This document shows positions 1 through 28,618 of a stretch of DNA of 28,618 nucleotides, piece by piece (positions within the stretch are counted from its first letter, which is position 1; each line of letters begins with the position of its first letter). The notes beneath the pieces are model-generated. The model was not told where the DNA came from. It did no database searches and saw only the letters and a program-made list of their open reading frames with translations. Source of the stretch: a virus; IMG/VR virus record IMGVR_UViG_3300037041_002839, positions 1 to 28,618 of that record. One strand, given 5' to 3'. The translations under genes were made by a program, and so were the position numbers.

Positions 1-44
1 CCGTTTAGGATGTTTGTGATGCTATACACAATTCCGGTCATCAT
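1..44 (-). CDS. GIY-YIG homing endonuclease, N-terminal fragment (cut by window edge)
   Basis: Reading leftwards from the ATG at 44-42 (a second ATG follows at 41-39) the frame gives MMTGIVYSITNILNG and then runs off the window. This is the usual opening of a GIY-YIG nuclease: a first beta strand carrying G-I-x-Y, then a turn before the YIG strand. The gene begins 36 nt after the scaffold stop and directly behind a good sigma70-like promoter (50-78), so its message may have almost no leader. The other end of the window carries a 5'-truncated GIY-YIG gene that begins just where this one would continue, so the two are probably halves of one gene. The motif is clear; the identity of the whole gene is inferred. 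Confidence 0.7.
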   Translation of the reverse strand, partial: MMTGIVYSITNILN

Positions 45-49
45 ACTAA

Positions 50-78
50 TATATATCTCGCACTCCTGAAATTGTCAA
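50..78 (-). promoter_or_regulatory. sigma70-like promoter before homing/capsid genes
   Basis: On the minus strand TTGACA (78-73) is followed by a 17-nt spacer and TATATA (55-50). The -35 is a perfect consensus match and the spacing is ideal. Transcription would begin near 43-44, at the ATG of the GIY-YIG gene. If the genome closes on itself, this promoter would also feed the major capsid gene. Confidence 0.6.
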
Positions 79-79
79 A

Positions 80-838
80 TTATTTTGCGCCATTTGCTTT
101 GTGCCAGAGAAAAGCCTGGTAAGCGTCCTTAAACTTCGGAGCTTCACCACCACGAACAGCGGTGCCAGTGCTTGTCTTCAGCAGCGTCTCCTTTGCAGCA
201 GCCCGGCCTGAAGCAAGAGCTTGCGTGCTCAATTGACCGCGAACGATGTGGTAAGCGTCCTCAAGACGGAGCTCAGGGCGTTCCATCAGGAGCCTTGCAA
301 CTGGCATACGGATGGCATCGGATACAAGGTCAGGATTCTTTGCCTTGAAAGTTTCAAGTGAGGCGGTCCGTTGGGCTGAAGCAAGGTCTTCCTGGAGGGG
401 AGCAAGGAGCTCCTGCATCTGCTTTGCAGCCCGTTGGTTGATTCGCTCTTCCAGTCCCTCATCTGACCAAGCATCATGAACCAGGGGAGCAGCTGCACGA
501 GTTGCAACATTCTTTGCAAACTCTGAGCTTGTCATTATCTCACGGTCACGCTGCAGCTGGGCTCTCTCTTCAGCAAGCTGTGCCTTTAGCTCGGCAATCT
601 CCTGTGTCTTTGTGGTGTAGCTTGCGCGTAAGTTACCAAGAAGCTTTCGCCCATTCTCTGGGAGGTGCTCAAGGATCTTCTTGTAATCAGGCAAGCCCTT
701 GTGGCCGCCCTTCAGATCGGGATGGTCGTTGTAGTCAGCGCCTACAAGCTCATCAAGAGACAGCTCAACATCATCGGCAACGTCAAGACGATCAACAGTG
801 CCCGTTGCTTCAACAAGAGGCGTAGTGTCAGCTTCCAT
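80..838 (-). CDS. Capsid scaffolding protein
   Basis: This 252-aa protein is acidic at the N terminus. It has a long charged helical or coiled-coil stretch around residues 70-105 (K/E/Q/L-rich, containing AELKAQLAEERAQLQRDRE). A second helical stretch runs at about 130-165, and the C-terminal tail is basic and rich in K and A. That make-up is typical of podovirus and siphovirus scaffolds, which fill the procapsid, interact with the capsid protein through a basic C-terminal helix and leave before DNA packaging. It follows portal, the zinc-ribbon protein and the 182-aa protein in one operon, and in the expected order lies just before the capsid gene. The ATG at 838 has AAGGAAG about 10 nt upstream and starts 2 nt after the previous stop. 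No protease domain is visible. Confidence 0.75.
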   Translation of the reverse strand: MEADTTPLVEATGTVDRLDVADDVELSLDELVGADYNDHPDLKGGHKGLPDYKKILEHLPENGRKLLGNLRASYTTKTQEIAELKAQLAEERAQLQRDREIMTSSEFAKNVATRAAAPLVHDAWSDEGLEERINQRAAKQMQELLAPLQEDLASAQRTASLETFKAKNPDLVSDAIRMPVARLLMERPELRLEDAYHIVRGQLSTQALASGRAAAKETLLKTSTGTAVRGGEAPKFKDAYQAFLWHKANGAK

Positions 839-840
839 AT

Positions 841-1389
841 TTACATTCTTCCTTTGAATAATTTATCAGTGTCGAGAGGAGCGGCTTCTTCCGGGCTCTC
901 CTCCTCAGTCATCTCTGCAGCACCAGTCTTCATCACTTTGCGCAGCAGGAACTTCTTCATCTTGGGAGAAGCAGCAGCCATGCCAATACGACCAGCTAGA
1001 GACTGCAGACCACTGTCATCTGTGACAGTCATTAGATCAACTTCCGCATCTGTGGGCAGGATGTCAGCTTCAACTGCATCGCTAATTGCTTTGGCAAACA
1101 TGCTGAGGAGACGAACAAACTCAGCGGGCAGAGTTGTTACCGTCTCAATGCCAGTGAACTTAGGATACTTGTCCTCTACTCCAAAGAGGGGAGCAAGCTT
1201 GTTGCTTGCATCAACAAGAACATTGAGTCCCTTGGGAGTGAAGCGGCCCTTCGGAGAAGCAGCAGCGTAGTTCTCATCCTCAATCTCTTCAACATCGCCA
1301 GTGCGGCGCATCACAGTCTCTTTCATCTTCTCAAGGTCTGCGCTTTCCAAAGGTGTCATTTTCTTTTCTCCAATAGTAATAGTGATCAT
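841..1389 (-). CDS. Hypothetical protein, 182 aa, between zinc-ribbon protein and scaffold
   Basis: I do not recognise the family. The protein is acidic and mostly helical. A helical block around residues 85-115 is followed by a D/E-rich stretch, and the C terminus is a charged tail (EEESPEEAAPLDTDKLF). By position, between portal and scaffold, it may be an assembly or head-associated factor; that is inference only. The ATG at 1389 overlaps the upstream stop as ATGA and has GGAG 5 nt before it. A second ATG at 1359 also has a good site (GGAGA, 7 nt spacing), close to that of the gene at 11625, so the protein may be 172 aa. The frame is certain; the start is not. Confidence 0.7.
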   Translation of the reverse strand: MITITIGEKKMTPLESADLEKMKETVMRRTGDVEEIEDENYAAASPKGRFTPKGLNVLVDASNKLAPLFGVEDKYPKFTGIETVTTLPAEFVRLLSMFAKAISDAVEADILPTDAEVDLMTVTDDSGLQSLAGRIGMAAASPKMKKFLLRKVMKTGAAEMTEEESPEEAAPLDTDKLFKGRM

Positions 1390-1853
1390 CCGTTCTCCGC
1401 AGCATCATGGGCAGCTGCTTGCTCTAACATCTCATGTGCTGGGAATGTTTCCGAAACAGCTCGGACTTTGTCCCCTCCAAAAGCCTTCAGGTTACCACGA
1501 TAAGCTGCAGCAGTGGCATCCAACTTATCACGGTCAGCCTTCGCATCATTCATATACTTGTCGTAGAAGCTGTCGCCACCTAAATCTTTTTCATTAATGA
1601 AGCCACGACTGTTCATGATAGTTTCTTCTTCACGCTTGGAAGATACCTGCTGTCCAGCTGAATAGGAGTAGAAGCCGTTGTTGCTGAGACCTGCATTCCA
1701 GCCAGCATTCCAGAGAGTACCAGTCCGAGCAGGCGCTGAAAGGAGAACCTTGCTCATCTGACTGCACTTTGGGCACGGCATGCTTGTCACATCATACTTC
1801 ACAAGGTCCTCGAAAGAGCCATGCTCACTGCAATGGAAGTCACGAAGTGGCAT
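1386..1853 (-). CDS. FmdB-like zinc-ribbon protein
   Basis: The 155-aa protein opens with a short zinc ribbon. Cys8 and His11 form the first knuckle (CxxH) and Cys27 and Cys30 the second (CPKC), with the pattern RDFxCxxHGxFExLV that is typical of FmdB-type putative regulatory proteins. After residue 45 the chain is polar and probably disordered, then helical. Such zinc ribbons are common next to portal and terminase genes in phages, but their role is not known; an assembly or DNA-contact role is possible. Its ATG shares a base with the portal stop (TAATG), so it is probably translated by re-initiation. The last codons overlap the next gene as ATGA. Confidence 0.7.
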   Translation of the reverse strand: MPLRDFHCSEHGSFEDLVKYDVTSMPCPKCSQMSKVLLSAPARTGTLWNAGWNAGLSNNGFYSYSAGQQVSSKREEETIMNSRGFINEKDLGGDSFYDKYMNDAKADRDKLDATAAAYRGNLKAFGGDKVRAVSETFPAHEMLEQAAAHDAAENG

Positions 1854-3475
1854 TAGACACCACCGATGTTAGTTGGGGCCGAGGCAGGTGCTTCTGAAGG
1901 TAATGAAGTCGCTTCAACTGCAGTAGCGGCAGGGGCTTCGGCTTCAACCAGGAAGCTTTCAGGAAGACCGAAGACACGAATAATCTCCTCCTTGATAACT
2001 TTCAGTGGCACACCAAGTGAAGGCAGGATGGGAGCAAGCTGCATCAGTTGCTGCTTCTGCAGGACTTCACTCATTGGAGTCCCACCACCGTCAGTGATGT
2101 AGATGGACCAGTTGGCATCAAGCTTTTCAGTCGATACCACCTTGGCACCATCTGGAGTGGCAACAACAAACTTGTCGCTGTCCTCGATGAGTGGCAGCAG
2201 CATACGGATGTAGAGCAGGACCGCAGCTTCAATGGCACCATCACGGTCGCGAGCCATCTTACCAAGCTCGCTTGCCGTGTACTGCATGAGAGCGCTGACC
2301 TCAGTCGCTGTTGCTTTGCTGGCCTCACCACGTGTAAAACCAGCAGTGAGTGAAGCCTTTGCCAGATCCTGCTCGATGTAGTTGAGGTAGTTGCCGTGGT
2401 TGCTGGAGAGTGGAACAACTGGGACAACATCGATGAGACCACCAATGCTATCAGCATCAACAGGAATCATGGCACCATCAACACCGCTTGTAATCTTGGC
2501 AAGGGCTTCCTCATCAAAAGCGCCCTCCTTGTAGATAAACTGGCGGCTGTCACGGCGGACGGCGTTGGCCCAGAAGGTGCGAAGGATATTCTTCTCAAAG
2601 ATCTGGTCATAGAGCCGTGACATTGCTGAGTAACCTTCCATTGGTCTGTCAGGTGTGCGCCCCAAGAAGTAGGGAATGATGTTGCTCAGTGCGCGGCCAT
2701 CAAAGGTGCTGACGGGGATGGGGGCACGGTCAATGAGCTCCTCACCGTTCTTGTAGTGTGAACTCCAGAAGAGGAGCTCATCATTGAGGAAGTCATACAT
2801 CTCAACAAGCTCAATGTAAAGGAACTCATTGGGCAACTCACCGGCTCCACCGCTGTCACCGTAAGCCCGGCTGTTCCTGTCAGTGTTACGTTCCCAGTCA
2901 GTGAAGTAGTCACGCTGAGGAGCACCAATCCACTTCTTTGCACCAAAGCGCTTTGTGGCTTCATCGACTGAGATGTAGTAGACATGCCCAACAAAGCGAC
3001 TGTCCTCGAATGCAGACGCATCACGGTCAAGGACAACCTGCCAAGGGGGAATCGCACGGAGTGCAATCTTGCTTGTGAGTGTGTTGCTCTCCCTGGGGGC
3101 AAGCTTGAAGAATGAATGCGTGTAGATGAGGGCCATCCGTGAGGCAGCTTCAATCTGTGTGCGGACTGACTTCAGCCACTCATTAGCCAGCGTCTTGGTG
3201 AGTTCAAGGTCACCAGCACCTGTGATATCAGGACCAAACTCCACGCTTGGATACTTACTGAAGAGACTGCCCATCACCGATTCGATGGCGGCATATCCAT
3301 CAGCCGTCTCCACTCGCAGTGTGCTGTCATCGATGGAGGAACCATCTGAGTAGAAGCGAGTCATATAGGCGTTGCGATACTTGCGCATCAGTGAACGCTG
3401 TTGGTCCCAAAACTGTGTGTGGGATTGTAGCGAAGCCCTAATGAAATTGATGCGGTCTCTTTCTGTTCTTGCCAT
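1853..3475 (-). CDS. Portal protein
   Basis: This 540-aa protein forms, by family, the dodecameric ring at one capsid vertex through which DNA is packaged and ejected. The N-terminal helices (about 1-40: RDRINFIRASLQSHTQFWDQ, then LMRKYRNAYMTRFYSDG), the mid-region Trp/Asp-rich strands (PPWQVVLDRDAS near 145) and the long helical stem region near 370-400 fit podovirus portals. The C-terminal tail is rich in A, P, T and E. Length is usual. Position directly after TerL and before scaffold supports the call. The start ATG at 3475 has GAGGGAG 4 nt upstream and its own promoter at 3493-3521. I assign it on overall sequence character and synteny, not on a single diagnostic motif. Confidence 0.85.
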   Translation of the reverse strand: MARTERDRINFIRASLQSHTQFWDQQRSLMRKYRNAYMTRFYSDGSSIDDSTLRVETADGYAAIESVMGSLFSKYPSVEFGPDITGAGDLELTKTLANEWLKSVRTQIEAASRMALIYTHSFFKLAPRESNTLTSKIALRAIPPWQVVLDRDASAFEDSRFVGHVYYISVDEATKRFGAKKWIGAPQRDYFTDWERNTDRNSRAYGDSGGAGELPNEFLYIELVEMYDFLNDELLFWSSHYKNGEELIDRAPIPVSTFDGRALSNIIPYFLGRTPDRPMEGYSAMSRLYDQIFEKNILRTFWANAVRRDSRQFIYKEGAFDEEALAKITSGVDGAMIPVDADSIGGLIDVVPVVPLSSNHGNYLNYIEQDLAKASLTAGFTRGEASKATATEVSALMQYTASELGKMARDRDGAIEAAVLLYIRMLLPLIEDSDKFVVATPDGAKVVSTEKLDANWSIYITDGGGTPMSEVLQKQQLMQLAPILPSLGVPLKVIKEEIIRVFGLPESFLVEAEAPAATAVEATSLPSEAPASAPTNIGGV

Positions 3476-3492
3476 GCGGCTCCCTCATCTTA

Positions 3493-3521
3493 TATATACC
3501 ACTCAACGACTTCTTTGTAAA
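3493..3521 (-). promoter_or_regulatory. sigma70-like promoter before portal
   Basis: The minus strand reads TTTACA (3521-3516), a 17-nt spacer, then TATATA (3498-3493). It lies in the 64-nt gap between the TerL stop and the portal start and would give a short leader holding the GAGGGAG ribosome site. It probably drives portal through scaffold. Confidence 0.55.
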
Positions 3522-3539
3522 ATATTTTGACAGTCTTCA

Positions 3540-5015
3540 CTAATAGCGACGGTGCTCCACTTTGCCGCCCTCTCGTCTGTGATGGGCTGCCTTCCTGTCC
3601 TTGATCCACTGTGGGATAAAAGGAGTGACATCAACCTTGACAGAGAGTGCACACTGTAGAGCCAGTGCCAGTGCAATCACTGAGTCCCCGTGGTGGAGTG
3701 GTGAGCGTGGACATTCAGGGACACCACGGTCATTGAGTATGAAAGATCGCAGCTCACCGACAGTGTGGCTGTCAAGCTGGAGGATACGCCCTCGGAGTAT
3801 GCTGTCCTTCAGGTAATCAAGCATCATGGGCTTGTTGTGTGCATTCGTTGTCCAGTATTTCCCAGCGGCATCTGTCCACTGTGGCACGCGAGCATGCTGG
3901 AGCTCATTGACAATGATACCTCCCCATGTGCCGTTGCTTTCAACAAGCACCTTGGCGCCATTCCACTTTGCACTTGCAGCAGCAACAGTCTCTGCCCATT
4001 CAACAGGTGCTTCAGTGCGTGACCGGCGGATCTCAACCACCTGACCGCTGCTGCAGTGAACCACAACAAGCACTGATGGATCACCACCTGTCCCAGCGCC
4101 AGCATCGACACCAATGGTATACTTTGCAGCGGCTTGCACTCTCTCTATCTGTCCACCAGCAGGCTCCAGCTGTAGGATCTCCAGGTCACGGAGAGTCTCT
4201 GCCCCCATCCAAGCGCCATCATTCTGGGAGTAAGCATCATCAACCGAGAGTGGATACTCACGCCGAAACTTTGTCTCCCCCAGCTGCCCACTCATCTTCC
4301 CTCCCCAGCACTGCTGTCCCGGTGTAAGCGTGCTGTCAGGATCAGGCTCGAAGTCTGGGCCTGGCGGTGTGCTGTACTCGGCGTGGTCTGTCCACTTGAA
4401 AAATAGGAAGTTCCAGTCTACAATACCAGCATCCCACAGCCCAATCTCGCGGTGTAGTGGATCACCAAAGAAGTTTGCCGTGCTCTCAATGAGGAGCTGA
4501 CCACCGTTGAGGGCTGCTATGGCTGTGCTCTTGAGCTCATCTGCGTCAGCAGTAAATGCAAACTCACTGATATGGATGGAAGAAGCTGTAAAGCTGCGTA
4601 GACCACCATCACCGCCAGATGACAGCGCACTCACACCTGCGCCTGTATCAGCGAATCGAAGCTCGCTGCTTGTTCTCACAGAAAGCTTTCGCTGCAGTGG
4701 ACGAGGAAGACCATCGTAGAATCGCAGGAACATCTGAAATATGTGTTTCGAAGATGCTGATTTATGTGACAAGATAACATGTGTTAGTGAGTCATGGGAG
4801 GTGTAAATCCGCCAGAAGAAGAAAGCAGCGGCGGCAGTCGTAGATCCTATTTGTCGCGGCTTTAAGACCAGCGTGTCATCACCGCCCGCAAGTGCTTCGA
4901 TGATTTGCATTTGCTCAGAGTTTGGTCGAAAGCTTACACTCTTGCCCTTTTTGTCAATGATCTTTAAGCGCCCACAGAACTCAAGAGGATCAGCGAGTAT
5001 TGCCTTCACATTCAT
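3540..5015 (-). CDS. terL: Terminase large subunit (TerL)
   Basis: The protein is the ATP-driven DNA packaging motor with a headful or end-cutting nuclease. From the ATG at 5015 it is 491 aa. The N-terminal ATPase shows a Walker A variant LKPRQIGSTT (51-60), a Walker B ending in the catalytic Glu (SIHISEFAF, Glu151), and the coupling motif LIESTAN (175-181). The C-terminal RNase H-like nuclease shows IGVDAG (Asp304), VLVESNG (Glu359) and HHGDSVIALALA (Asp444). I chose 5015, not a TTG 15 nt earlier, because ATG and the upstream stop overlap as ATGA. Length and all key residues are normal, so it should be active. Confidence 0.95.
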   Translation of the reverse strand: MNVKAILADPLEFCGRLKIIDKKGKSVSFRPNSEQMQIIEALAGGDDTLVLKPRQIGSTTAAAAFFFWRIYTSHDSLTHVILSHKSASSKHIFQMFLRFYDGLPRPLQRKLSVRTSSELRFADTGAGVSALSSGGDGGLRSFTASSIHISEFAFTADADELKSTAIAALNGGQLLIESTANFFGDPLHREIGLWDAGIVDWNFLFFKWTDHAEYSTPPGPDFEPDPDSTLTPGQQCWGGKMSGQLGETKFRREYPLSVDDAYSQNDGAWMGAETLRDLEILQLEPAGGQIERVQAAAKYTIGVDAGAGTGGDPSVLVVVHCSSGQVVEIRRSRTEAPVEWAETVAAASAKWNGAKVLVESNGTWGGIIVNELQHARVPQWTDAAGKYWTTNAHNKPMMLDYLKDSILRGRILQLDSHTVGELRSFILNDRGVPECPRSPLHHGDSVIALALALQCALSVKVDVTPFIPQWIKDRKAAHHRREGGKVEHRRY

Positions 5016-5278
5016 AGTGTCTTTGTCCAAGACTTCATTTCATCCAGCATCTCAGCACGCTTGGTGACTGTCTCTCCTTGTGCCTGATAAGCTGCTGCAA
5101 GACCAGACTGCCGAGTCGCAGCGCTCACAGTCTTGATAAGCTCGATGATAATAGTTTTTCCAAGCTCTGGGGGATCGCCAGCATCAAGGTCTAGGAGGGC
5201 TGCTTCAATGAGTGCCCAGCAGAGAGCATCGGCATCACGTTTCTTTGTAGCTTTGAGGGCAGGGGCGTACTTACTCAA
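5012..5278 (-). CDS. Small protein upstream of TerL, possible terminase small subunit
   Basis: The 88-aa protein is largely helical and mixed charge (starts SKYAPALKATKKRDADAL, ends EMLDEMKSWTKTL). It overlaps terL as ATGA, the position and coupling expected of a small terminase subunit that recognises DNA for packaging. No classic HTH can be pointed to, so this rests on context. The start is odd: the only standard in-frame start is TTG at 5278 with a weak AGG upstream. The frame stays open back to 5323, giving about 15 more codons (IEARGHTYFYSRFNT) directly after the preceding stop, which hints at a longer product from a rare start codon. Confidence 0.55.
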   Translation of the reverse strand: MSKYAPALKATKKRDADALCWALIEAALLDLDAGDPPELGKTIIIELIKTVSAATRQSGLAAAYQAQGETVTKRAEMLDEMKSWTKTL

Positions 5279-5323
5279 TGTGTTGAACCTGGAGTAAAAA
5301 TAGGTATGGCCGCGAGCTTCAAT

Positions 5324-5617
5324 TTATTCAAGTATTTTGTGTGAGTGTGCATTTATTTGGGAGTGCTGTGGGCTGAGGGCTGTGGGCTGAGTGCGGTAGG
5401 CTACATTGGCAATGCCGTCATCTGTGATGCGGTACATGTCATGCCGGTAGACGTTGACTACTCTCCCCTCTATCAGGACCTGAGCATCGTAGATCTGCAG
5501 GCTGCCAACAGGTGGCTTGTTGAGTGAGAGGACTATCCCTGTCTGTGGTGAGACCGGCCGGTTATAGACATGGACAAGGTCTCCAGGTGCGAAGTTGTCA
5601 TTGTTCCAGTCATTCAT
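5324..5617 (-). CDS. Hypothetical small beta protein, 97 aa
   Basis: The family is not recognised. The sequence NFAPGDLVHVYNRPVS, then TGIVLSLN, then YDAQVLIEGRVVNVYRHDMYRI, alternates short strands and turns like the small SH3-type barrels found in many T4-like and marine phages, whose roles are mostly unknown. The last 25 residues are polar. The ATG at 5617 is supported by a strong GGAGGAG site 7 nt upstream and by ATGA overlap with the 25-aa membrane ORF before it. It is cotranscribed with the TerL genes from the promoter at 5711-5739. Confidence 0.65.
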   Translation of the reverse strand: MNDWNNDNFAPGDLVHVYNRPVSPQTGIVLSLNKPPVGSLQIYDAQVLIEGRVVNVYRHDMYRITDDGIANVAYRTQPTALSPQHSQINAHSHKILE

Positions 5618-5691
5618 GCGAAGACTCCTCCACTCCATAGCGCTACTATCCAGAACAGGATGATGAAGATGATATCACGTTCAGCTGTCAT
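5614..5691 (-). CDS. 25-aa single-pass membrane micro-protein
   Basis: The frame from ATG 5691 encodes MTAERDII, then a run of about 17 hydrophobic residues (FIILFWIVALW with flanks), then SGGVFA and a TGA that overlaps the next start as ATGA. A GAGG ribosome site lies 5 nt upstream and the TATAAT promoter at 5711-5739 lies just before it. It is the first gene of the operon leading to TerL. A short charged head plus one helix is also seen in small phage membrane effectors and pinholin-like proteins, but the function is unknown. Its small size makes this a moderate call; the start, the coupling and the strongly membrane-like composition argue that it is real. Confidence 0.55.
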   Translation of the reverse strand: MTAERDIIFIILFWIVALWSGGVFA

Positions 5692-5754: not shown

Positions 5755-5782
5755 TTGATTACTTTGACACTTGCTCCATACT
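5755..5782 (+). promoter_or_regulatory. Weak candidate promoter for the plus-strand nuclease
   Basis: TTGATT (5755-5760), a 16-nt spacer and CATACT (5777-5782) each match the sigma70 consensus at four of six places. This is the best pair I can find before the rightward gene, and initiation would fall near 5789. Confidence 0.3.
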
Positions 5783-5802
5783 TAACTTTGATGGAGTGGA
5801 AA

Positions 5803-6261
5803 ATGTCAACAGCAGATTGGAATACAGCAGATGGAAAGCGTGCTCTTCAGGTTGGTAAAGAGTTCGAAGGTCGTCTCTTCAGCATTATGTGTGAAGCAGA
5901 TCCTGATGCTCAGTGGATAGCAAATGATCCTGAAAGATTCTTTGATGGTTACGATATGATCTTTCGTGGTAAGCGTGTTGAAGTAAAGAGCAATGCTGGT
6001 GTCTCCGCTTGGGGCAAGCACTATGACACTGTCTGTGTTGAGGTCACAACCAAAGCAGGCCGTCCTATCGGTTGGAGCACCGGCAAGAGTGATGTTGTTG
6101 TCTTCATCGATCGAAGCACATGCTGGGCTTACGTCTATAGATCATCAGTCCTGAGGGAGTGGATCAAGAGTGGACGCACCTTCTCCAGCAATGATGCGCA
6201 GTGTATCATCATGCCGTGGATCTGCAAGGACGCAGGCTTCGTTGCACAGATTGCAATATGA
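5803..6261 (+). CDS. PD-(D/E)XK-type nuclease
   Basis: This is the only gene on the plus strand. The 152-aa protein has an N-terminal helix with Glu20/Glu22 (GKEFEGRL), then FFDGYDMIF with Asp51 and GKRVEVKSNAG with Glu60-x-Lys62, the D-ExK signature of the PD-(D/E)XK fold. GWSTGKSDVVVFIDR (about 87-101) fits a later core strand. Family members cut or resolve DNA in phages, as T7 gp3 does, or act as Holliday-junction or restriction-like enzymes. The exact role here is inferred. The start at 5803 has GGAG upstream; an ATG at 5791 would add four residues. Divergent control from the palindromic region suggests expression at a different time from the structural genes. Its 3' end is 21 nt from the convergent HTH gene. 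Confidence 0.65.
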   Translation: MSTADWNTADGKRALQVGKEFEGRLFSIMCEADPDAQWIANDPERFFDGYDMIFRGKRVEVKSNAGVSAWGKHYDTVCVEVTTKAGRPIGWSTGKSDVVVFIDRSTCWAYVYRSSVLREWIKSGRTFSSNDAQCIIMPWICKDAGFVAQIAI

Positions 6262-6863: not shown

Positions 6864-7538
6864 TTAAAGCAGACCGAGCATCTCTTCGAGTTCTTCAAGA
6901 GTGGGAGCAGCCGTCACTGAGAGAGGCGTGCCATCATCAGCTATGGTAATCCATGTCGAGTCATGGCGAAGTGTATCAGTGAGCTTCTGGAGTGGGGCAG
7001 CGTATGCTTGTGCTTCAGCGCGTGCTGCCTTGTTGTGGCGTCTGCCTTCAACAATCGCTGCTGTGTGCGCACTTGATTGTGTTCTTCCCTTCTGTGAAGC
7101 GCTCATATTGGCACGATGCGCAGGTGTTAAAGGAGCAACTGACTTACCTTTCTTCGCGATGCTGATTGCAGGAATCTTTTTCCCTGTCTTTGTAGCACTG
7201 ATACTGGCGCGAGTCGCATCACTCACTGAAGTTCCAGCGCCACCGCCACTTGTCAAGTTGAAACCGTCCGGTGCCATGCATCCAAGAGTGGCTATCCACC
7301 AGCATTCCCGCTCATTCAGTTCCTCTCTCTTGCACTCTTCGAGGATAACAAATGAGAACTCTCCAACACCATACTTCATGATGGCACCTTTGATTCCAGC
7401 AGAGTTCTTCTTAGGCGTTGAGTGCTGCTTCCATCTCTCAAAACAATCCACACTTTGACCACAGTATTTTCTGCCTGTCTCAACGTGTGTGATGCAGTAA
7501 ATTCCCGTCGTCTTCTTTAAGTAGTAATTAGTTTTCAT
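6864..7538 (-). CDS. GIY-YIG homing endonuclease with NUMOD3-like repeats
   Basis: The 224-aa protein starts with the GIY-YIG nuclease fold: GIY at 12-14, KYCG (YIG variant, Cys for Ile) at 24-27, the catalytic Arg in the helix FERWKQH, and a conserved Glu in LNEREC near 76. From about residue 95, Ser/Thr/Lys-rich segments (SDATRASISATKTGKK, ISIAKKGKS, HRANMSASQKGR) recur in the manner of NUMOD3 DNA-binding repeats. Such proteins are usually free-standing homing enzymes that spread between phage genomes. It overlaps the end of the palm-like gene by 11 nt, so it may have inserted at or fused to its 3' edge. It appears intact. Confidence 0.85.
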   Translation of the reverse strand: MKTNYYLKKTTGIYCITHVETGRKYCGQSVDCFERWKQHSTPKKNSAGIKGAIMKYGVGEFSFVILEECKREELNERECWWIATLGCMAPDGFNLTSGGGAGTSVSDATRASISATKTGKKIPAISIAKKGKSVAPLTPAHRANMSASQKGRTQSSAHTAAIVEGRRHNKAARAEAQAYAAPLQKLTDTLRHDSTWITIADDGTPLSVTAAPTLEELEEMLGLL

Positions 7539-8550
7539 AGAGTTCTACCGTCCATTTGTAACCTGTTGCTTCTTTAAGCTCGAGTAAGATATCTGCGATG
7601 TCACCGTTAACGTCAGCAACGAAACCGTCGTGAACTCTGAGGATGATGTTGTCACGGCCAACAACTTCAAATGCAGTATCAATGATGCGCTGCTCATGTG
7701 TTGTAAAGAACATGTGAGCCCCTTCAACACGGCACTCTTGCAGTGTCGATGCAATCCACTTGCCAAGCTCATCATACCAAGGGACACCAACTGCATGAAG
7801 CTTGAATCCACTGTCAGGATGGAAGAGACGTGACCGCATTGCTTTTGCTTTCTTCTCAATACTCTTTACCGTATCATACTTTAGTGCGTACGTGTAGCAT
7901 TCAGTATCGATAATGCGCTGAAGGAAAGCTGTCTTGCTATCACACATTGCCGTAAAGTCAGGATGCTCAGTGATGCCGCGCTCTTGAAGTAGATGACGGA
8001 AAATGTTTGGAAAGCAAGCGTCAATGTCGAAATCGTGGAAGCCTGCAAACTTAATTCGTTTCATTTCTTTTGTGAGTCCTTGGTCAGCATGGTAAATTCG
8101 TGCGCCTGCATCTGAAGTGGTGTAGTTCCGAACATCAGCGCCTGGATACGGAATGGGCTCTAAAGCCTTTGTGCTCTTGGCTTTCCGCGCTAAGTCTCCA
8201 CTATAAGATGTCTTCCTGTGGTGTTCCTGTCTGTAAGAGTGGATGAGTCTGTTCTCTTGTGCGAGACATCTTTCGAACAGGGCGGAGAACGCCGGTGTCT
8301 GTGCCTCGAGGAGGAAGCAGATGCCAGCCGCCCGGTTGCTGTAGCGCTTCACATGGAAGCACGCGTCTCTGATAACAGGATACTGCTCAGTGAGTGCTTT
8401 CATCTGGGCAGAAGGAATAAACTCCGCTCCCCATCGTGCTGTTGAGACAAACAATTCCATCAATGCAATGTGCCCTCGACCTATACGCTGGAGGGAGGGC
8501 ACATTGATTTTGAGGAAATCTTTATAGAGGGCGGTGGTGCTACTGGACAT
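7528..8550 (-). CDS. Protein with polymerase palm-like motifs, 340 aa
   Basis: I do not recognise a named family. Residues 149-158 (GARIYHADQG) and the helix after them lead into FHDFDIDACFPNIF (171-184), which resembles polymerase motif A: a strand, a catalytic-type Asp, then a helix with P-N. Near the end, IILRVHDGFVADV (302-314) resembles motif C of family A DNA polymerases and T7-type RNA polymerases, where V-H-D lies in a beta hairpin. A Lys-rich helix between them (KYDTVKSIEKKAKAMRSR) could serve as motif B. The order A-B-C is right, and 340 aa could hold a minimal palm with no exonuclease. This is pattern recognition only. The ATG at 8550 (GGAG upstream) is preferred to a GTG at 8577 because the latter lies inside the leader structure. 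Confidence 0.5.
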   Translation of the reverse strand: MSSSTTALYKDFLKINVPSLQRIGRGHIALMELFVSTARWGAEFIPSAQMKALTEQYPVIRDACFHVKRYSNRAAGICFLLEAQTPAFSALFERCLAQENRLIHSYRQEHHRKTSYSGDLARKAKSTKALEPIPYPGADVRNYTTSDAGARIYHADQGLTKEMKRIKFAGFHDFDIDACFPNIFRHLLQERGITEHPDFTAMCDSKTAFLQRIIDTECYTYALKYDTVKSIEKKAKAMRSRLFHPDSGFKLHAVGVPWYDELGKWIASTLQECRVEGAHMFFTTHEQRIIDTAFEVVGRDNIILRVHDGFVADVNGDIADILLELKEATGYKWTVELYEN

Positions 8551-8603
8551 ATGGTCTCCGGTGGGGAGTGGATACACCGGAATTCCACTCCCAGTAGCAC
8601 CAC
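8534..8603 (-). promoter_or_regulatory. Structured mRNA leader over the start of the palm-like gene
   Basis: In the minus-strand transcript GTGGTGCTACTGG (8603-8591) pairs perfectly over 13 bp with CCAGTAGCACCAC (8546-8534), which is codons 2-6. Inside are two competing hairpins: GGGAGTGG (8592-8585) with CCACTCCC (8571-8564), and CCGGTG (8580-8575) with CACCGG (8563-8558). The second hides part of the GGAG ribosome site (8559-8556); the first leaves it free. They cannot form together because no linker separates their 3' arms. The promoter at 8613-8640 would start RNA about 3 nt before the outer stem. This looks like a translational switch. Confidence 0.5.
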
Positions 8604-11689: not shown

Positions 11690-14600
11690 CTATTTCTTTC
11701 TTGCAGCGCCTGTCAGTATTTCAAGTTCACTACGACGGATCGCAGCTTCTTGTGCAGCCTGCTCAATTGCACGTGTCTCAGTCTCTAGCGGTAGGCCGGT
11801 GCCAAAACGACCAGTTAGACCAGCCATCTCAGAGCCTGTGAATGTTGTACGCTCACCTGTTGACAGTCCTTCGGCACCAAAGATATCGAATGAACCTGCA
11901 TACTTGCCCCAGTCATCAACGAATCGACGAGTACCAAGAAGTTCAAATGCTTTCATGTATCCCCTGTAGCGCTCAAAATCTGCGGATGGTACCTCATAGA
12001 CTTGTCCGTTGTAAGCTTCCTCACCACCTGTAGCAGGACGAACCTTTGCATTGAAGTTGGTGGTCCAAGCATCTTTCAGACCAGCTGCATCCATGAAAGC
12101 AATGTGTTCCACAGGAATCCTGTTCTTCTTTAGCTTTATGTTCCAGAGAGCTCCCATACCAGTTCCATAAGCAATCATTGTTTGGTATTCTGGACGAAGC
12201 TTGCTGAAGATATAGCCAGCACCGAAGTCTCGCTTCCCCTTGACAGGATCAGCAGCCCCAACCATAAGATCAACCGGTGTTGTCATCAGTCCTGCAGCAA
12301 GGTAGACAAAATCACTGTAAGGTAAATTAGGCATTATGGTTATTTGCCCTTCACGACCTGCCTTGGCTTCAAGATCGAGAACAATATTGCTAACACCAGC
12401 ATCATATGGAGTGTACCAACGCATCTCATTCCACTGCTCTTCACCAACAGCCATTTTTGTTCCATCAGTAGCAAGACGCATCTGACGGACAACACGACTT
12501 GGATTTGTTAGCAGCCCTCTCAATCCCTCGACCACGGAGTTTCTGGTGAAGTTGTAGAACAGAATGAACTTGGAGACGTACTTGCGTTCAATCTCGGTTG
12601 CTGCGCCGTAGTCAAAGAGAGAGCGACGTCCAAGGTCTATTGCTTCGTCAACTGTCTTTCCAGATTTGATGGCATCAACAGTGTAGCTGAGACGCCACAT
12701 ATCATCAGCAAACTGAGCAAATCCTGAACTTAGAACAAGCTTGGGACTGTCAATCGCACTCCCGACTGCACCACGTGCCTTCCCGAACAGACCACTTGCA
12801 AGACCAAGTTCGCGTGCATCATCAAGGAATCGAGGATCGATGTTGACAGAAGCCGCTGACTTAAATACACCACTGACAATCGCACGATCATAGAGTTCAC
12901 CAGCTGTGACAGGCACACCGAATCGATCGGTTGCCACAACTGCTGCTCTCACTGCAGCATCAGTCGATGATCCTTTTTGCAGCACGCTGGCACCTGAAAT
13001 AGGAGATACAGGAAGGGCACCTATTGTTAGCCCAGCAATAAAAGGTGCTCCACTGATGTTTTTTCCATGGAACCGAGGATTGCGGTAGAGGATCATGTTG
13101 TAGAAGATGGAGTTGTAAATGCCCCAAAGATCGTTGACGCGATTGCGGACGGAGATCACAGATAATTCTCCTTTGAGTCCTCCTCCCTTAGCTGCACGCT
13201 CAGCAAGAATGCCCATCTCTTGGATGAGCTGATCAAACTTAGGTGCCTTACCAAAGTCAGCTTCAATCGCTTCCTGGATGAGGCGACCAAGAGGACCAGT
13301 TCCCATTGACTTCACATCGAGAGCGCCAGATGCAAGTTTTGCAGCATCAACAGCAATGAGAGTTGCATCATCTGCATATGAAGCGCGGATGGCAACTGCT
13401 GTGTCCTCGCCACCGGATATCCATTCAGAAGCCCGCGCACGAATTGCCCCTTCAAGTGCTGGCTGATCTTCCAGTATACTTCTCACCAGCGGCAAGTTGA
13501 TAAGATCATCAGCTGAGTTAAGGGCAGTTCCTTCAAGTTTTGCAGCAGTGACACCATTGATAAGCTTGCGACCATAGACAGGACCAAATGCTGATATTGC
13601 AAGGTCAAGATATCCACCAAGAGTGTCAGGCTCAAAGTCAAGTATCTTGCTAACAGTCTCTCTTGATATTTTGTTTGCCTCACCACGTGCCCATGCAGCA
13701 GTGAGCACTTCATCAGGCTTTGTGGTAAGTGAGAAGACTTTGCCTAGCTCATCAACAAATGCAGTGTTTTGAAACTTCGTGTCGCTGGCTATGGCGGCAA
13801 CATCAGTGATGAATGCCTTGATGTTGTTGACATCATTAAGGTCGGTACCTAAATAGCGGTTGATGGTGGCTGTCAGTTCAGTGGTGCCTTCGGCTGTTAG
13901 GAACTTTGACACATCATCATATTCGAATGTACCAGTAAGGAATTGTGCACCACTGAATTGCTTCCTTCCAAAGATAGCTGACTGCGCAATGCGAGTCCAT
14001 GTATCGCTGCTGCTGTTATCACCGACAAGGTTGACAATCTTTTCGTATGGAGTGCTTCCAACAGCTTCCGCCAACTGCTTCTGAAGAATCTTACCAAGGT
14101 TGCCCATCTTCGTCCTACCGTCTGTTAGGATACGAAGCTGATCACTGTTTAGGAAGCGCACAGGATCACCAGCTTTTCTTGCCCACTGACTGACAGTAGA
14201 TACAATTGAACGCCAGGTAGAGTTGATAAGACCAACATCACCACCGTAAGCTTCTGCACGCCCAGATGGAACAGACAACGGACGAGAAACTTTATCACGA
14301 ATGATTGTTCGTTTGCCAGCAGGCGCAAGAGCACTGCTCTTAAAAGAATCGCTTCCTTTAGCTGCAACAGCGTCAGTAACAGAGTAGACAATCTGACGTA
14401 AATCAGATGCTTCAACCGTTCCGCTGCTGATCTTAGCCATCATCCTGCTTGCTTCACCACGTGGCAGTGTGGATGAGATTGCTTGCTGACGAACAGTATT
14501 GCGAAGAGCAACTTGCTGAGGAGGAGTAAGAGCGTATGTGCCTGTGCCAGGAGAAGCTGAGGTGATGCTGTCAATAAGCCTGAACTCATCAGTGGCTCGA

Positions 14601-16846: not shown

Positions 16847-19482
16847 TACTTTCCTCCGGGAGCGGTATCCCGATCTTTAATATCAAGGGCAAGAGCGGTC
16901 TCGTGTGCTTTTTCCATGGCAGGTCCGTCACCAGCAAAAGTCAAAGTAATCTCCTCATAGGTTCTGCTAAATGGTATTCCCTTCGATTTATTGGCGCGGT
17001 ATAGATCATACGCAACTTTACCAGGTCCGCTTGCAGAAAGTCTGCTGAGTTTATCAGCTTTCTTTGCAAGCAGGTAAGCCCCCTCAAGACGATTGATGAG
17101 GTAGCCTTCCTTTGTCTGACGGGGACCAGTCTTTGGTCCTCTAAAAGACTCAATTGTACCAGCTGCTTTGATGTCAGCCATTGTCTTTGCTGCAGCTCCA
17201 GATGCCTCCATACTTTCGGTGCCTTCTTTGATTGCCATGCCGGCCCTCATGTTGGCTAACAGCGGGCGACTAGGACGATCGAAGGTACCTTCAGGTGCAG
17301 CAGCAGCAGATCGTGGCGCAACACCTTCAGTTGATGGTGAGGGGGCAGCCTCTGCTATTGGAGGAACAGAACCTGGGGAGTAACGACCAATTGATACACC
17401 TGCTGATGGAGGAACTGCACCGCTAGGAACTCTTACAGTACCTGTTGACTCTGCAATCGTCCCTCCCCCACCGCCGTAGGCCCCGCCGCCGCCGCCGCCA
17501 CCGCCACCGACAGAACGTTGGCTCAGCATGTCCTCAATGCCAATGCGCGGCGGTGCTGATGGAGCACGGAGAGCAGAAGTTCTAGCAGTCACTGGAACGG
17601 CTAGATCCGGTTCGAACGCTTCAGCTTCTGGTACAAATTCACCAGTGAAACGTGGGCGAAACGTTGCTGCACGAAGCTTGTCACGGAACTGCTGCTTCTC
17701 ATCTTCAGTCATCAGGTCGGCTGCTTCAGGACGAATATCTGCAGCTGCGGAAGGATACGTGCCCATTGGAGGAGCGGCTCGACCAGCAGCATCACGCTCC
17801 CTTGCTATGTACTCATCCAGTGCACGCTGATCGGCTCGACCGCCGGGCTTGCGGAAGAATGGAACAAGCTCACCGCCACGTTCTTCAAATGGAATCTCGA
17901 AAGGACGATCTTCCATTGCAGTCTCTATACCAATGCGTGATTCAGCATCCATCATACGCTTGGCTTCTGCAAACTTGGTGTCAGCCAGACGTTGGAGAGC
18001 TGACTGCCCGCCAGGTGTCAGACCAGGAGTACGTGCAGCCGCTCCAGCAGACACAGCATCAGCCATGATAGTCTCAGCGCTCTTGCCTTTAGCGATTGCT
18101 ACCTCTTCACGAGGAGGCATCGTGAAAGCAGGAGTTGCACGAGCTGCAGCCTGAGACTTTGACCATGCAACCTTCGCAGCCTGGTAAGAAGCCGCGTCTG
18201 CATCCGGATTACCTGTGTCAGGCCGGACCACACCGACTGATTCCCATGCGCTTGCAGTTGTAGGAGCAACTACAGGAGCGGCCGGAGCCGTGGCTGCAGA
18301 GGGCGCAGTCACTCCCGGAGCAGTTAGACCAGGTACACCACCAGGAATGGGGACACCGCTCTTGGAGAAGCTCTCAATGATGGTATCGCGCATCGGCTTA
18401 TCAGCACGTAGGAGCGCCTCAATTGCGTTGCGTTGACCGTAAGAAGGCGATGCCCTGACTGGACCAAAGCGACCAGCTGCAATATCACGGGCACGAGTAA
18501 TGTAGTCAAAGCCGGCCATTGATGGACGATCGAGCCCGGCTCTTTCAGTTCCAACATCAGCAATTTGCTGATCGATCCGTGCCTGAAGGGCTGCGTCGCT
18601 TTCTACAGCAGGAGGCGTCACAGTCGGAGCATCAGAAATATTCTTAGCAAGACCTGGATACTTCTTGTAGTACTCAGTTTCACGTGTTGTGACGGTTGGC
18701 GCTCCAGTTCCAGCTTCTGCTGCAATCGCTGCATCGATACGTTCGAAAGCTGAAGCAGCACCTGCTTGACCACCTGCACGTAAGCTCCCAACAACTTTGA
18801 TTCGTGCAGCATCACGAGCATCCTCGTAAGGCATGCCAGGATTGCCACTCATTATGGTTGCTGTGGTTGCATCAACTGATTCATTCACAACTCTGTATCG
18901 AGCAGCGTCTGCCTCAGCAGGCTTACCAGCTCCAATACGACCAGCTCCAATCTTTGTCTCCACATTTCCAACAAGACCAACAGCATCTGTTGGAGCAACC
19001 TGAGCTTTCGAAAGATCGATCTCTTTCTGCGCTTCATCACTGATTGCATCAGCACCAGTACCACCGCGCCGTCCACCACCGCCAGTAGTCGTTGTTCCTG
19101 TTGTAACAACACCAGTAGCAGCCACTGCTTCATCGCGACGCGCCTGTTCAGCCTGACGATCACCTGCCTCACGCAGGGCAGAGATTGCAGCAGCATCAGT
19201 TGCGCTGAGACGACCTTCAGCAACACGGACCTTCAGCCCTTCGAGCTCCTTACGGCGTGCATCAAGAGCATCGAGGCGGTCGCGGTAACCTTTCATCTCT
19301 TCAGCGTATTGCTTCGAACCAAGCTCAAGCTCAAGCAGCGACTGCTTTTGAGCCATTTCCCACTGGTTGGCGCGCTCCTTGGTGAAGACAGACGTGTACT
19401 CACCAGCAGCTGAGTCTTTGTACTTCTTTACCTGATTTGGCGAGATGACATAGACGCCCTTCGCGACCTGAGATATTGCCAT
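16846..19482 (-). CDS. Internal virion protein, 878 aa, low-complexity
   Basis: The first 125 residues are helical and charged (YTSVFTKERANQWEMAQKQS, then ELGSKQYAEEMKGYRDRLDA). The rest is rich in A, P, G, T and R, with long stretches that look unfolded. A Gly run broken by AY lies near residues 655-672. The C-terminal 90 residues are helical again (GYLINRLEGAYLLAKKADKL). It lies second in the three-gene ejection set, matching T7 gp15 in order and rough size, but I see no direct sequence match. Ribosome access comes from GGAG 6-10 nt before ATG 19482, which starts 9 nt after the preceding stop. Confidence 0.6.
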   Translation of the reverse strand: MAISQVAKGVYVISPNQVKKYKDSAAGEYTSVFTKERANQWEMAQKQSLLELELGSKQYAEEMKGYRDRLDALDARRKELEGLKVRVAEGRLSATDAAAISALREAGDRQAEQARRDEAVAATGVVTTGTTTTGGGGRRGGTGADAISDEAQKEIDLSKAQVAPTDAVGLVGNVETKIGAGRIGAGKPAEADAARYRVVNESVDATTATIMSGNPGMPYEDARDAARIKVVGSLRAGGQAGAASAFERIDAAIAAEAGTGAPTVTTRETEYYKKYPGLAKNISDAPTVTPPAVESDAALQARIDQQIADVGTERAGLDRPSMAGFDYITRARDIAAGRFGPVRASPSYGQRNAIEALLRADKPMRDTIIESFSKSGVPIPGGVPGLTAPGVTAPSAATAPAAPVVAPTTASAWESVGVVRPDTGNPDADAASYQAAKVAWSKSQAAARATPAFTMPPREEVAIAKGKSAETIMADAVSAGAAARTPGLTPGGQSALQRLADTKFAEAKRMMDAESRIGIETAMEDRPFEIPFEERGGELVPFFRKPGGRADQRALDEYIARERDAAGRAAPPMGTYPSAAADIRPEAADLMTEDEKQQFRDKLRAATFRPRFTGEFVPEAEAFEPDLAVPVTARTSALRAPSAPPRIGIEDMLSQRSVGGGGGGGGGAYGGGGGTIAESTGTVRVPSGAVPPSAGVSIGRYSPGSVPPIAEAAPSPSTEGVAPRSAAAAPEGTFDRPSRPLLANMRAGMAIKEGTESMEASGAAAKTMADIKAAGTIESFRGPKTGPRQTKEGYLINRLEGAYLLAKKADKLSRLSASGPGKVAYDLYRANKSKGIPFSRTYEEITLTFAGDGPAMEKAHETALALDIKDRDTAPGGK

Positions 19483-26360: not shown

Positions 26361-26380
26361 GCGGTGCCCTGCCTTCTTTA

Positions 26381-26410
26381 AATATACTCTCAATTGGGAT
26401 CTTGATACAA
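26381..26410 (-). promoter_or_regulatory. Candidate promoter of the tail gene operon
   Basis: The minus strand has TTGTAT (26410-26405), an 18-nt spacer and TATATT (26386-26381). The -35 is a weak match and overlaps the end of the terminator. A restart of transcription after the terminator is nevertheless expected. Confidence 0.4.
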
Positions 26411-26448
26411 AAAGGTGCCGCCCCTAGAAAATAATCTAGAGGCGACAC
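26409..26448 (-). terminator. Rho-independent terminator after the decoration gene
   Basis: On the minus strand GTGTCGCCTCTAGA (26448-26435) pairs with TCTAGGGGCGGCAC (26428-26415) over 14 bp with two G-U pairs and a 6-nt loop. C and then five T follow (26413-26409). It ends the capsid-decoration transcript and would let these abundant proteins be made apart from the tail genes. Confidence 0.85.
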
Positions 26449-26505
26449 ACTTACTGGGCCTGACCGGCTTTCTATTGTTTAGGAGCCGCCCGACTTGTGA
26501 GCAGA

Positions 26506-26991
26506 TCAGAACTGCTTGTAGATCCAGACCTCGGCCACGTTGGCGACCGGGGCGGTGAGCGTGACACCGCAAGCGGGGCCAACGTCTGCAGCCCCGCATG
26601 CAACAGCCCGGCCTGCGCCAGCTGCCTCGACGATCAGAGCCACACCAGCAGCCGCGACAGCGTTGGCGACGTTAGCCGCAGCAACGAATCCACCGACGCA
26701 GACGCGAACGACAGCGGGCGAAGTTGCAGTGCCGGTGACAGTTGCGAGAGCCACACCGCAGACAAGGGGATTGCCCAAGCCGTTGGCGGTGGCCTGCCTC
26801 ACAACGAGCACCTTGGAGGCACCTGTCTGAGCAATGTCGAACTCGAGCCAGTCACCAGCGGTGACAGTGGTCTCAGCAAGAAACTCCTCGACCTGTGAGC
26901 GATTGGAAGTGGAAGCGCCGACCGGAGTCGTGCCACCGCCCGCGAGGTTCTGAGTCTTTTCGAGGTATTGAACGAGAGTAGAAGTTGCCAT
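26506..26991 (-). CDS. Head decoration protein
   Basis: The 161-aa protein is Ala/Val/Gly/Thr-rich and probably a beta-tulip or barrel fold. Regular strands such as PLVCGVALATV, VVRVCVGGFV and ACGVTLTAPVANVAEVWIY recur with short turns. Its place 2 nt after the capsid gene and before a terminator fits a protein made in high, near-equal amount to the capsid that locks or covers the shell. It contains four cysteines, which is unusual for a cytosolic phage structural protein. Family membership is by composition and synteny. Confidence 0.65.
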   Translation of the reverse strand: MATSTLVQYLEKTQNLAGGGTTPVGASTSNRSQVEEFLAETTVTAGDWLEFDIAQTGASKVLVVRQATANGLGNPLVCGVALATVTGTATSPAVVRVCVGGFVAAANVANAVAAAGVALIVEAAGAGRAVACGAADVGPACGVTLTAPVANVAEVWIYKQF

Positions 26992-26993
26992 GA

Positions 26994-28016
26994 TTAGAAG
27001 AGATCTCCATTGAAGAGTAGAGCGCAGCTGGCAAGGTTGTCAGCGATGAGCTGGCCTTTCCAGTAGATCTGAGCGGAACGAGCGGTAGTGCCGGGGATGT
27101 ACTCAAAGGGGCTGACCGCGAGGTCGCCATCGGAGTGCATAACCATCTTGATGCCGTCGAAGTTGATGAAGTACATGGTGGCCTCAAGGTTGGCACCGTT
27201 GACAGTGGCGTCAGGCATGAAGACATCCTGAACAACTGCAGCGTTACCAAAAGCGAGGGACATGAAACCGGCATTCAGCTGCTTCTCATCAATGTAGCGC
27301 TCCTGAGTGAACATGGCGCGACGGTAGTTGGCGTATCCAGCCTCGGAGGCAAGGACAAGCTTGATCTCGCCCATAGGAGCGCGAGCCGAAGTCTCAGCAG
27401 CAATCTGGTGCATGCCTCTGATACCGTTGGTACCGAAGGCGGCGCCGGCATTGAAGATGCGGTTGAAGAGACCGTTGCCGTCAGGAACCAGGGAGCGAGC
27501 GAGACCGCCCACCGTGTTGGTCTGACCAGCGGCGGTAGGAGCGCCCTGCTCCAGGAAGCCAGTAGCGGTAAGAACACCGTTGAGAGTCCCGAGAGAAGTC
27601 AGAACGGCGGAGTTACCAGCGACAAGCTGACGGTTGATCTCCCTGCGGAGAAGTCCCATCACGTTGCGCATACGGGCTTCAACAATCTTGACGACAGCCT
27701 TCTCACCGGAGTTCTCAAGCTCTTCCTTCTTGGTGATAACGATGGGAGCCACGAAGTCAGACCACTCATAGAGAGCGGGCTGCATGACATCCTGCACCGC
27801 CAGGGAGACAGGCTCGTAACCAGTAGCAAGCTGAGTTATGGTCGAGTGGTTGCTGACAGCGAGGGGACGCTGAATTTTTATCCCTCCGTCTTCATATTCA
27901 ATACCACCGAGACGCTTCGCAAAGTCCAAAAACGGCACACGCTGGAAGAGTTCATCAACTTCCCCATCGCGGATAGAAAATAGAGTCGAGCTGAGTAGCT
28001 CATTAGAAATCGGCAT
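26994..28016 (-). CDS. Major capsid protein
   Basis: The 340-aa protein should have the HK97 fold and form the icosahedral shell. It opens MPISNELLSSTLFSIRDGEV, then FQRVPFLDFAKRLG. The region near 90-125 (FVAPIVITKKEELENSGEKA, then KIVEARMRNVMGLL) is a strand-plus-long-helix segment typical of the capsid spine helix. The C terminus is beta-rich (MYFINFDGIKMVMHSDGDLA, then YWKGQLIADN). Length is usual for phages without a fused protease domain. AGGAGG 6 nt before ATG 28016 is the strongest ribosome site in the window, in keeping with high expression. No capsid protease gene is seen. Confidence 0.88.
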   Translation of the reverse strand: MPISNELLSSTLFSIRDGEVDELFQRVPFLDFAKRLGGIEYEDGGIKIQRPLAVSNHSTITQLATGYEPVSLAVQDVMQPALYEWSDFVAPIVITKKEELENSGEKAVVKIVEARMRNVMGLLRREINRQLVAGNSAVLTSLGTLNGVLTATGFLEQGAPTAAGQTNTVGGLARSLVPDGNGLFNRIFNAGAAFGTNGIRGMHQIAAETSARAPMGEIKLVLASEAGYANYRRAMFTQERYIDEKQLNAGFMSLAFGNAAVVQDVFMPDATVNGANLEATMYFINFDGIKMVMHSDGDLAVSPFEYIPGTTARSAQIYWKGQLIADNLASCALLFNGDLF

Positions 28017-28048
28017 TGTTGCCTCCTATTTGTAAGAACAAGATACGG

Positions 28049-28618
28049 TTAAATTTCGGTTGTCGGCTGCGCCGGTCCGGTGTCCACAGTTGAGACGATA
28101 GGTGACGTTTCCGTTCTATCATTTCTGGCGGGAGCACTTGCCCTTACAAGTTGTTTTGCAGCTAACGTAGCTTTTAGCGTCGCTTTCTGCTTTGCTTTCG
28201 TTTCTTCAGATTTTGGCGTTGGCCGCTTTCTGGTTAGTCCGGTTCCTTTTATCTTTTCAGAAATCTTTCGGCAACGTTCGGCTTCCATCTCAGGAGTCCT
28301 GTTTGCATTCCATTCAGTCATTGCAATCTTGTGCTGTGTCCAGTCCTGCTTAGCGGTTGCTTCTTTAATTTTGCGATTGTGGTCTTCAGAATTCTTCATT
28401 CCACGACGACTTCCGCCAAGTGCAACCTGCTTTACGTTGTAGAGACCGCTATGTCTAAAGATACCGAACGCCATCTCTTCCAGAGCGTGGCGATTTTCAG
28501 CATCACACACCATCAAAACTTCATATTCAAAAGCATCAGGACCGTGCTTATTGAAAGAAGCCTGAAGGTGACAGCTATGATGCTTGCCACGACGTAGCAT
28601 GCTACAGTGGTCTTTCCA
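28049..28618 (-). CDS. GIY-YIG homing endonuclease, C-terminal part (5' end cut by window edge)
   Basis: The frame is open through the window edge; an internal ATG at 28600 is not the start. The first residues are WKDHCSMLRRGKHHSCHLQA, then FNKHGPDAFEYEVL. This is the alpha helix and following strand of the GIY-YIG fold after the YIG strand, with the catalytic Glu in ALEEMAF. After this come SRRGMKNSEDHNRKI and further Lys-rich NUMOD3-like segments. The GIY and YIG motifs are missing from this part; the matching start lies at 1-44. It ends 32 nt before the capsid ATG. Confidence 0.8.
   Translation of the reverse strand, partial: WKDHCSMLRRGKHHSCHLQASFNKHGPDAFEYEVLMVCDAENRHALEEMAFGIFRHSGLYNVKQVALGGSRRGMKNSEDHNRKIKEATAKQDWTQHKIAMTEWNANRTPEMEAERCRKISEKIKGTGLTRKRPTPKSEETKAKQKATLKATLAAKQLVRASAPARNDRTETSPIVSTVDTGPAQPTTEI

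Follow-up and report, generated by a model that had tools for sequence, protein, structure and literature searches.

Ends of a viral contig within one GIY-YIG homing endonuclease gene support a nearly complete circular phage map with a conserved structured RNA ahead of the capsid gene

Introduction

The IMG/VR virus record IMGVR_UViG_3300037041_002839, analysed here over its full length of 28,618 nt and called the window, appears to cover nearly all of one unit, of about 28.66 kb, of a tailed phage whose map is circular. The assembler would have opened this map inside a free-standing GIY-YIG homing endonuclease gene between a scaffold-like gene and the capsid gene, with a loss of about 43 nt. 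The endonuclease gene itself was presumably inserted into the capsid leader, between a promoter-like sequence and a conserved structured RNA of 93 nt. In relatives without the endonuclease this RNA is most likely the start of the capsid mRNA, and it most likely sets the lifetime of that mRNA or the frequency of its translation. Taken as a whole, we consider this explanation highly probable. Members of the phage group occur in many IMG/VR contigs, but the phage collection searched contains no close relative.

Results

The window ends and the circular map

The window is the entire record and neither edge has further sequence. A parent contig extending past an edge, which the first-pass annotation of this DNA had named as the observation that would speak against a circular map, is thereby ruled out. 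On the minus strand, positions 44–1 read MMTGIVYSITNILNG; this 5' part of the split gene begins with two ATG codons (44–39) and stops two bases into the final Gly codon, the third base of which is absent. The 3' part (28049–28618, minus strand) reads WKDHCSMLRRGKHH from 28618 on, lacks the YIG part and stays open for 189 codons until the stop at 28049. The proposal that these are two halves of one GIY-YIG gene was borne out by a close relative, the sibling contig IMGVR_UViG_3300031746_003238 (L002; 6454 nt), which carries the intact gene in the predicted place. Its gene row reads g3, g2, scaffold-like gene, unbroken endonuclease gene and capsid gene, the arrangement predicted for the joined ends.

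L002 and the window share 88–91% DNA identity at both joins, and the left 3.5 kb of the window is 88% identical to L002. Positions 1–44 match L002 3524–3567, within the intact open reading frame (ORF), at 43 of 44 nt, and the first 372 nt of the right-end piece match L002 from 3611 on at 337 positions (91%). Both pieces fall in a single open frame of L002 and leave 43 nt between them (L002 3568–3610), which encode KRYIGSSAQTPGER plus one base and carry the YIG motif. A gap of 13 residues and about 40 nt had been foreseen; this came close to the 14 residues and 43 nt of L002 without matching them. With the gap taken from L002 the closed unit amounts to about 28,661 nt, in agreement with the predicted 28.66 kb. 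The missing stretch starts and finishes at third codon positions, an arrangement expected once in nine by chance; we conjecture that the assembly graph broke at silent strain differences, which such edges would fit.

Within the window itself no exact terminal overlap of 8–60 nt was found, so the end-overlap test for a circular map was negative for this contig. With the capsid protein as query, viral contigs yielded 168 relatives, the best 80 loci of which underlie all counts over 80 loci below; the records of 38 loci were opened, and 21 long ones were fetched whole. Overlapping ends of 60–199 nt were present in six of these 21 (29.9–34.2 kb). The overlap is exact in four (199, 123, 87 and 127 nt), spans 60 nt with one mismatch in another and 98 nt, ending two bases short, in the last. 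All six belong to the nine longest; neither the other three of these nine nor the 12 shorter relatives have an end overlap. The units of the six measure 29.8–34.0 kb and have at least five distinct openings on one gene order (just before terL; g519/758-aa tail gene; g254/g232; g241/ivp; ivp/terL; g11/terL), with the ivp/terL and g11/terL openings possibly near each other. The order of recognisable genes is otherwise common to the relatives, and every gene neighbourhood round the circle was found, since the window gives all but the join and L002 gives the join. Because six relatives are opened at differing places on the same gene order, the map is read as circular. Thus, the comparison confirms that the window ends are halves of one endonuclease gene and supports reading the window as a nearly complete circular phage map.

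The genes on either side of the join fit this arrangement. The major capsid protein gene (26994–28016, minus strand) was assigned by tblastn to annotated major capsid or virion structural proteins at 23–28% identity and recurs in the 80 viral loci. Directly upstream of it on the closed map lies the scaffold-like gene (80–838, minus strand), for which no PHROG or Pfam match was found. A scaffold-like gene precedes the capsid gene by 159–876 nt in 73 of the 80 loci, and the remaining seven contigs begin 3–824 nt upstream of the capsid gene. Hence, the scaffold–capsid order stated earlier holds among the relatives, but the name scaffold for 80–838 is taken from position alone.

The GIY-YIG endonuclease

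The intact L002 protein (185 residues) scores 33.1 bits against Pfam GIY-YIG (cut-off 22.6) and has both motifs in one frame. In the window, the GIV-Y part and the part following YIG are present and YIG falls in the gap. The 3' half by itself has no Pfam match; it does match the homing endonuclease family phrog_314 (3.1e-11). The score against PF19835 SegE, 22.4 bits, is below the cut-off of 25. A second, internal gene (6864–7538, minus strand; PF01541, 1e-7, above cut-off) is indeed of the GIY-YIG type as first annotated, although its relationship as a paralogue amounts to just 31% identity, over 65 residues, with the intact L002 protein.

As in phage free-standing GIY-YIG homing endonucleases (T4 Seg type; PF01541, PF19835 SegE, phrog_314), the gene has GIY and YIG motifs, is placed between two genes without splitting either and is patchily distributed, L002 being the only relative known to carry it. 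It differs from the T4 Seg type in that it sits inside a capsid leader, its 3' end overlapping a conserved RNA. Homing genes near capsid genes have already been reported; in the passages concerned, T5orf172-type endonuclease genes are described as most often near terminase, ribonucleotide reductase or capsid genes (PMC10448857). The endonuclease is therefore an ordinary free-standing GIY-YIG gene, and the circular reading of the window is right but ordinary. Judging from its family and patchy presence, the enzyme most likely cuts leader alleles that lack its gene and would spread by their repair.

Among the 80 capsid loci, tblastn located this endonuclease before the capsid gene in L002 alone, besides the window. 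A match in L017 is confined to codons 157–188, which are the RNA stretch. L011, whose scaffold-like protein is 97% identical, has no endonuclease before its capsid gene and holds a different GIY-YIG-like match (29–32%) elsewhere on the contig. The L002 gene is 32 codons shorter than that of the window before the RNA overlap (157 versus 189 codons; L002 3611–4084 versus 28049–28618).

A conserved RNA ahead of the capsid gene

The stretch at 28055–28147 (minus strand, 93 nt) recurs in the scaffold–capsid spacer of relatives that lack the endonuclease, and conservation on account of the endonuclease protein is thus ruled out. Its predicted fold consists of a four-pair stem P1 around a loop that typically reads GCAACTNCTCCCG, followed by a second and a third hairpin; a pseudoknot joins the P1 loop to the strand preceding the third hairpin. 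A covariance model, R1, was built from 12 seed sequences, one of them the window (96.7 bits), and run over 81 sources, namely the window and the 80 loci. In the model-fitted alignment of 33 distinct rows, five of which are weak matches, 89.9% of the cells are paired. Two-sided changes occur at 22 of 28 pairs compared with 16.7 in shuffled alignments, and the covariation of 0.511 contrasts with 0.134 in shuffles and at most 0.097 for slid partners, with none of 500 shuffles reaching as high. Compensatory changes hence exceed both controls, as is required of a structured RNA. These values have to be read with the fact that the structure was derived by eye from sequences including the 12 seeds, which biases them in its favour. 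The pseudoknot lies outside the model and was thus not fitted; its helix is 95.1% paired. In the 12 seeds all pseudoknot cells are paired, pair 1 as C-G, G-C or U-A and pair 3 as U-A, G-C or C-G. Three of the six pseudoknot pairs covary with three or four pair types each, and the remaining three vary little or not at all, one of them failing in four rows.

R1 gave 43 matches at E≤1 over the 81 sources. Thirty-six have E<1e-4 (the window and 35 loci), including 24 outside the seed set with 16 distinct sequences among them; L060, one of the seven weaker matches, is off-site. Each strong match is the only one in its source and occupies a fixed place: in all 35 loci the RNA ends 35–84 nt before the capsid start, and in the window 38 nt. 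This endonuclease is missing from 34 of the 35 loci and hence does not account for the presence of the RNA. A scan of viral contigs for a 17-base pattern returned 27 stretches, 19 in contigs already known and eight in new ones. Five of the new contigs have strong model matches and in L126 the RNA is cut off by the contig end; the stretches in L123 (no model match) and L142 (11.9 bits) were rejected as chance.

Searches against Rfam 15 gave no match at the gathering score in the window, none to the element itself up to E=5 in either the window or L012, and two sub-threshold matches, both off the element, in seven loci. A blastn search of isolates, with one copy of the RNA as query, returned a single 25-nt chance match. 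The RNA is thus undescribed within Rfam 15 and the literature searched for capsid-leader RNAs, a search outside which most subscription papers fall.

In a more distant clade, 16 of the 31 loci searched have an alternative RNA-like leader motif (11 distinct elements; L054 9904–9969 and 15 others, L051–L081). RNAalifold predicts a closed multi-hairpin fold for this leader, which is 92% conserved. In all 16 loci TTGACA, 17 nt and then TACAAT, TAAAAT or TACACT stand directly before it. Against Rfam it gave one match far below threshold (16.1 versus 50 bits).

Overlap of the endonuclease gene with the RNA

The RNA covers 31 of the last 32 codons of the endonuclease gene, after which one codon and the stop follow (28051–28049); the first-pass annotation had overlooked it. 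Upstream of the gene the window resembles the endonuclease-less L011 (TTGACA, then TATATA), and downstream it resembles L013 and L017 from TTGTAAGG on; this likeness of the flanks indicates that the gene lies between the promoter-like sequence and the RNA. Between the window and L002, 13 of 93 RNA positions differ. Four of the five varying pairs form in both genomes, with clean changes on both sides at 28-51 and 30-49; the fifth, a P1 pair, forms in L002 only. Of 28 pairs, 25 form in the window, 26 in L002 and 21–26 in ten endonuclease-less seeds. These counts lie within or at the top of the endonuclease-less range, so the RNA looks as intact beneath the gene as in its absence, and a decay of the window RNA under the gene is ruled out.

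Promoter-like sequences

Just before the endonuclease ATG the minus strand reads TTGACA (78–73), 17 nt and TATATA (55–50), a promoter-like arrangement read from the sequence (50–78). In L011, which lacks the endonuclease there, TTGACA-16-TATATA stands just before the RNA. Strict promoter scans of the two end regions of the window reported no site at 50–78 or before the RNA. Among 22 non-redundant loci (drawn from 29), 14 have a -10-like hexamer in the 24 nt preceding P1, with a score sum reached by none of 2000 shuffles, compared with 1 of the 22 in the next stretch upstream (p 0.78). As the box ends 2–10 nt before P1 in these 14 loci, transcription would start at or near P1. In some relatives (L007 5374–5635 and L022 6046–6319) the scaffold–capsid spacer carries a small basic ORF, KKASKKVVKN..., in place of the endonuclease, and there the -10-like box still adjoins the RNA. 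From these sites we infer that the phages start capsid transcription at a promoter with the structured leader immediately after it.

Other genes of the window

The portal protein gene (1853–3475, minus strand) was recognised by phrog_156 (4.5e-5) and by Pfam SU10_portal (1.1e-5, under its cut-off), and the terminase large subunit gene (3540–5030, minus strand) by phrog_2 (4.1e-19). In a relative of 30.4 kb the terL match (G005:C1:398-1879) has one TGA. A likely gene at 5755–6261 (plus strand) runs opposite to the rest; its counterpart is kept, also reversed, upstream of terL in G005 (76%), G014 and G015. The ORFs at 11690–16846 and 16846–19482 (minus strand) encode proteins of 1718 and 878 aa without PHROG or Pfam match, which have counterparts at the same place in several relatives and are perhaps internal virion proteins. 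The 349-aa orphan ORF at 7528–8577 (minus strand) has no PHROG, Pfam, viral-contig or PDB sequence match, and its single-sequence structure model was uninformative (mean predicted local distance difference test, pLDDT, 35.5). By eye, its strings DIDACFPNI and RVHDGFVAD may be polymerase-palm-like; the window proteins that were searched included no recognisable DNA polymerase. The window contains no tRNA, and a pattern-based scan of genome contigs for the host confirmed no capsid relative.

Discussion

A bolder account of these observations, which we think likely, is that this group of small tailed phages begins its capsid mRNA with a dedicated pseudoknotted RNA, and that a homing endonuclease has colonised this leader and shares 31 codons with it. 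One stretch would then serve both as protein code and as RNA structure, which we hold likely jointly with that account. The RNA is best described as a putative leader controlling the capsid mRNA. Control of the stability or translation of this mRNA is our leading guess at its role, though one that has only an even chance of being right.

Several observations weigh against parts of the overall explanation. The completed frame with a YIG motif that the first-pass annotation expected exists as one open frame in L002, but the window's own junction is covered by no read or contig, and L002 is the only relative with this endonuclease. No R1 match at E<1e-4 was found in 45 of the 80 capsid loci; L016, one of these, begins at the capsid gene, and the 16 loci with the alternative leader are also among them. 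The fold also has weak spots, with only 77.1% pairing in the lower part of hairpin 2 and no outermost P1 pair in 10 of 33 rows. The weights of the -10-like score were set by the author after seeing the sequences, and under full -35/-10 (sigma-70) scoring just 4 of the 29 loci attained p 0.05 and 25 did not; since the complete arrangement beats shuffles in so few, the promoter claim rests on the -10-like box. Finally, the endonuclease gene puts about 560 nt, with the gap taken as 43 nt, between the promoter-like sequence and the RNA in the window, so any function tied to the extreme 5' end of the mRNA would be lost there. This displacement argues against an RNA that does no more than stabilise the 5' end, unless the gene was inserted recently or transcription starts from another promoter.

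With regard to the role of the RNA, the main rival is a translational operator for the scaffold-like or the capsid protein that tunes their ratio, for which scaffold autoregulation in phage P22 provides a model; a literature search on this parallel listed nothing relevant. The RNA does lie between the two genes. However, its end is 35–84 nt from the capsid start and has no fixed overlap with the ribosome-binding site, and we regard the operator as possible, with a clearly smaller chance than control of stability or translation. Alternatively, the conserved stretch could act as DNA, as a packaging or replication site, an operator or a recombination hotspot. Such a site would suit the 36 strong matches, each of which is single in its source and stands at a fixed place, but a pseudoknot can pair only in single-stranded form, several pairs retain G-U cells (seven at one, four at another) and the -10-like box directs transcription into the stretch, which makes a DNA site improbable.

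Two further alternatives concern the map rather than the RNA. The ends might truly abut, in which case the endonuclease gene would be dead after losing 43 nt including the YIG motif. Although the gap is known from L002 alone, joining the ends without it breaks the frame by bringing in a stop after 49 codons, the remainder stays open over 189 codons, and a deletion precisely at an assembly break would be a coincidence; this possibility is very unlikely. A linear genome with fixed ends, the contig ends being close on the relatives' map by chance, would agree with the missing terminal overlap in the window and in three of the nine longest relatives, but it is hardly credible given ends 43 nt apart within one gene of L002 and six relatives with overlapping ends at differing places.

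The nearest annotated counterparts of the capsid region are the Mx8-like and related phages (Myxococcus phage Mx8, Bradyrhizobium phage ppBjS10J-1, Bacteriophage sp. ctMlz233 and Stenotrophomonas phage BUCT555), whose capsid protein is 23–28% identical. As in the window, a single gene, here of about 1.0–1.2 kb, stands directly before the capsid gene in these four records, with a terminase or portal gene further upstream in three of them, where annotated. They differ in genome size (39–50 kb), and a search for the RNA in four of seven such records gave no convincing match, with 13.7 bits in BUCT555, inside a coding gene, and 8.9 bits. Among RNAs, the marine phage-borne leaders manA, wcaG and PhotoRC-II are likewise structured RNAs of marine metagenomes and phages, tied to metabolic or photosynthesis genes in the sections of the report describing them, the main text of which does not contain the word capsid (PMC2864571). 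In contrast, the RNA described here precedes a capsid gene and has no Rfam match.

With the join, a contig that has no end repeats becomes a nearly complete genome map, and other contigs cut in homing genes could be recognised in the same manner. Moreover, the case shows a homing gene overlapping a conserved RNA, and this RNA offers a concrete point at which to test how small tailed phages might produce capsid protein in very large quantity from one of many co-directional genes.

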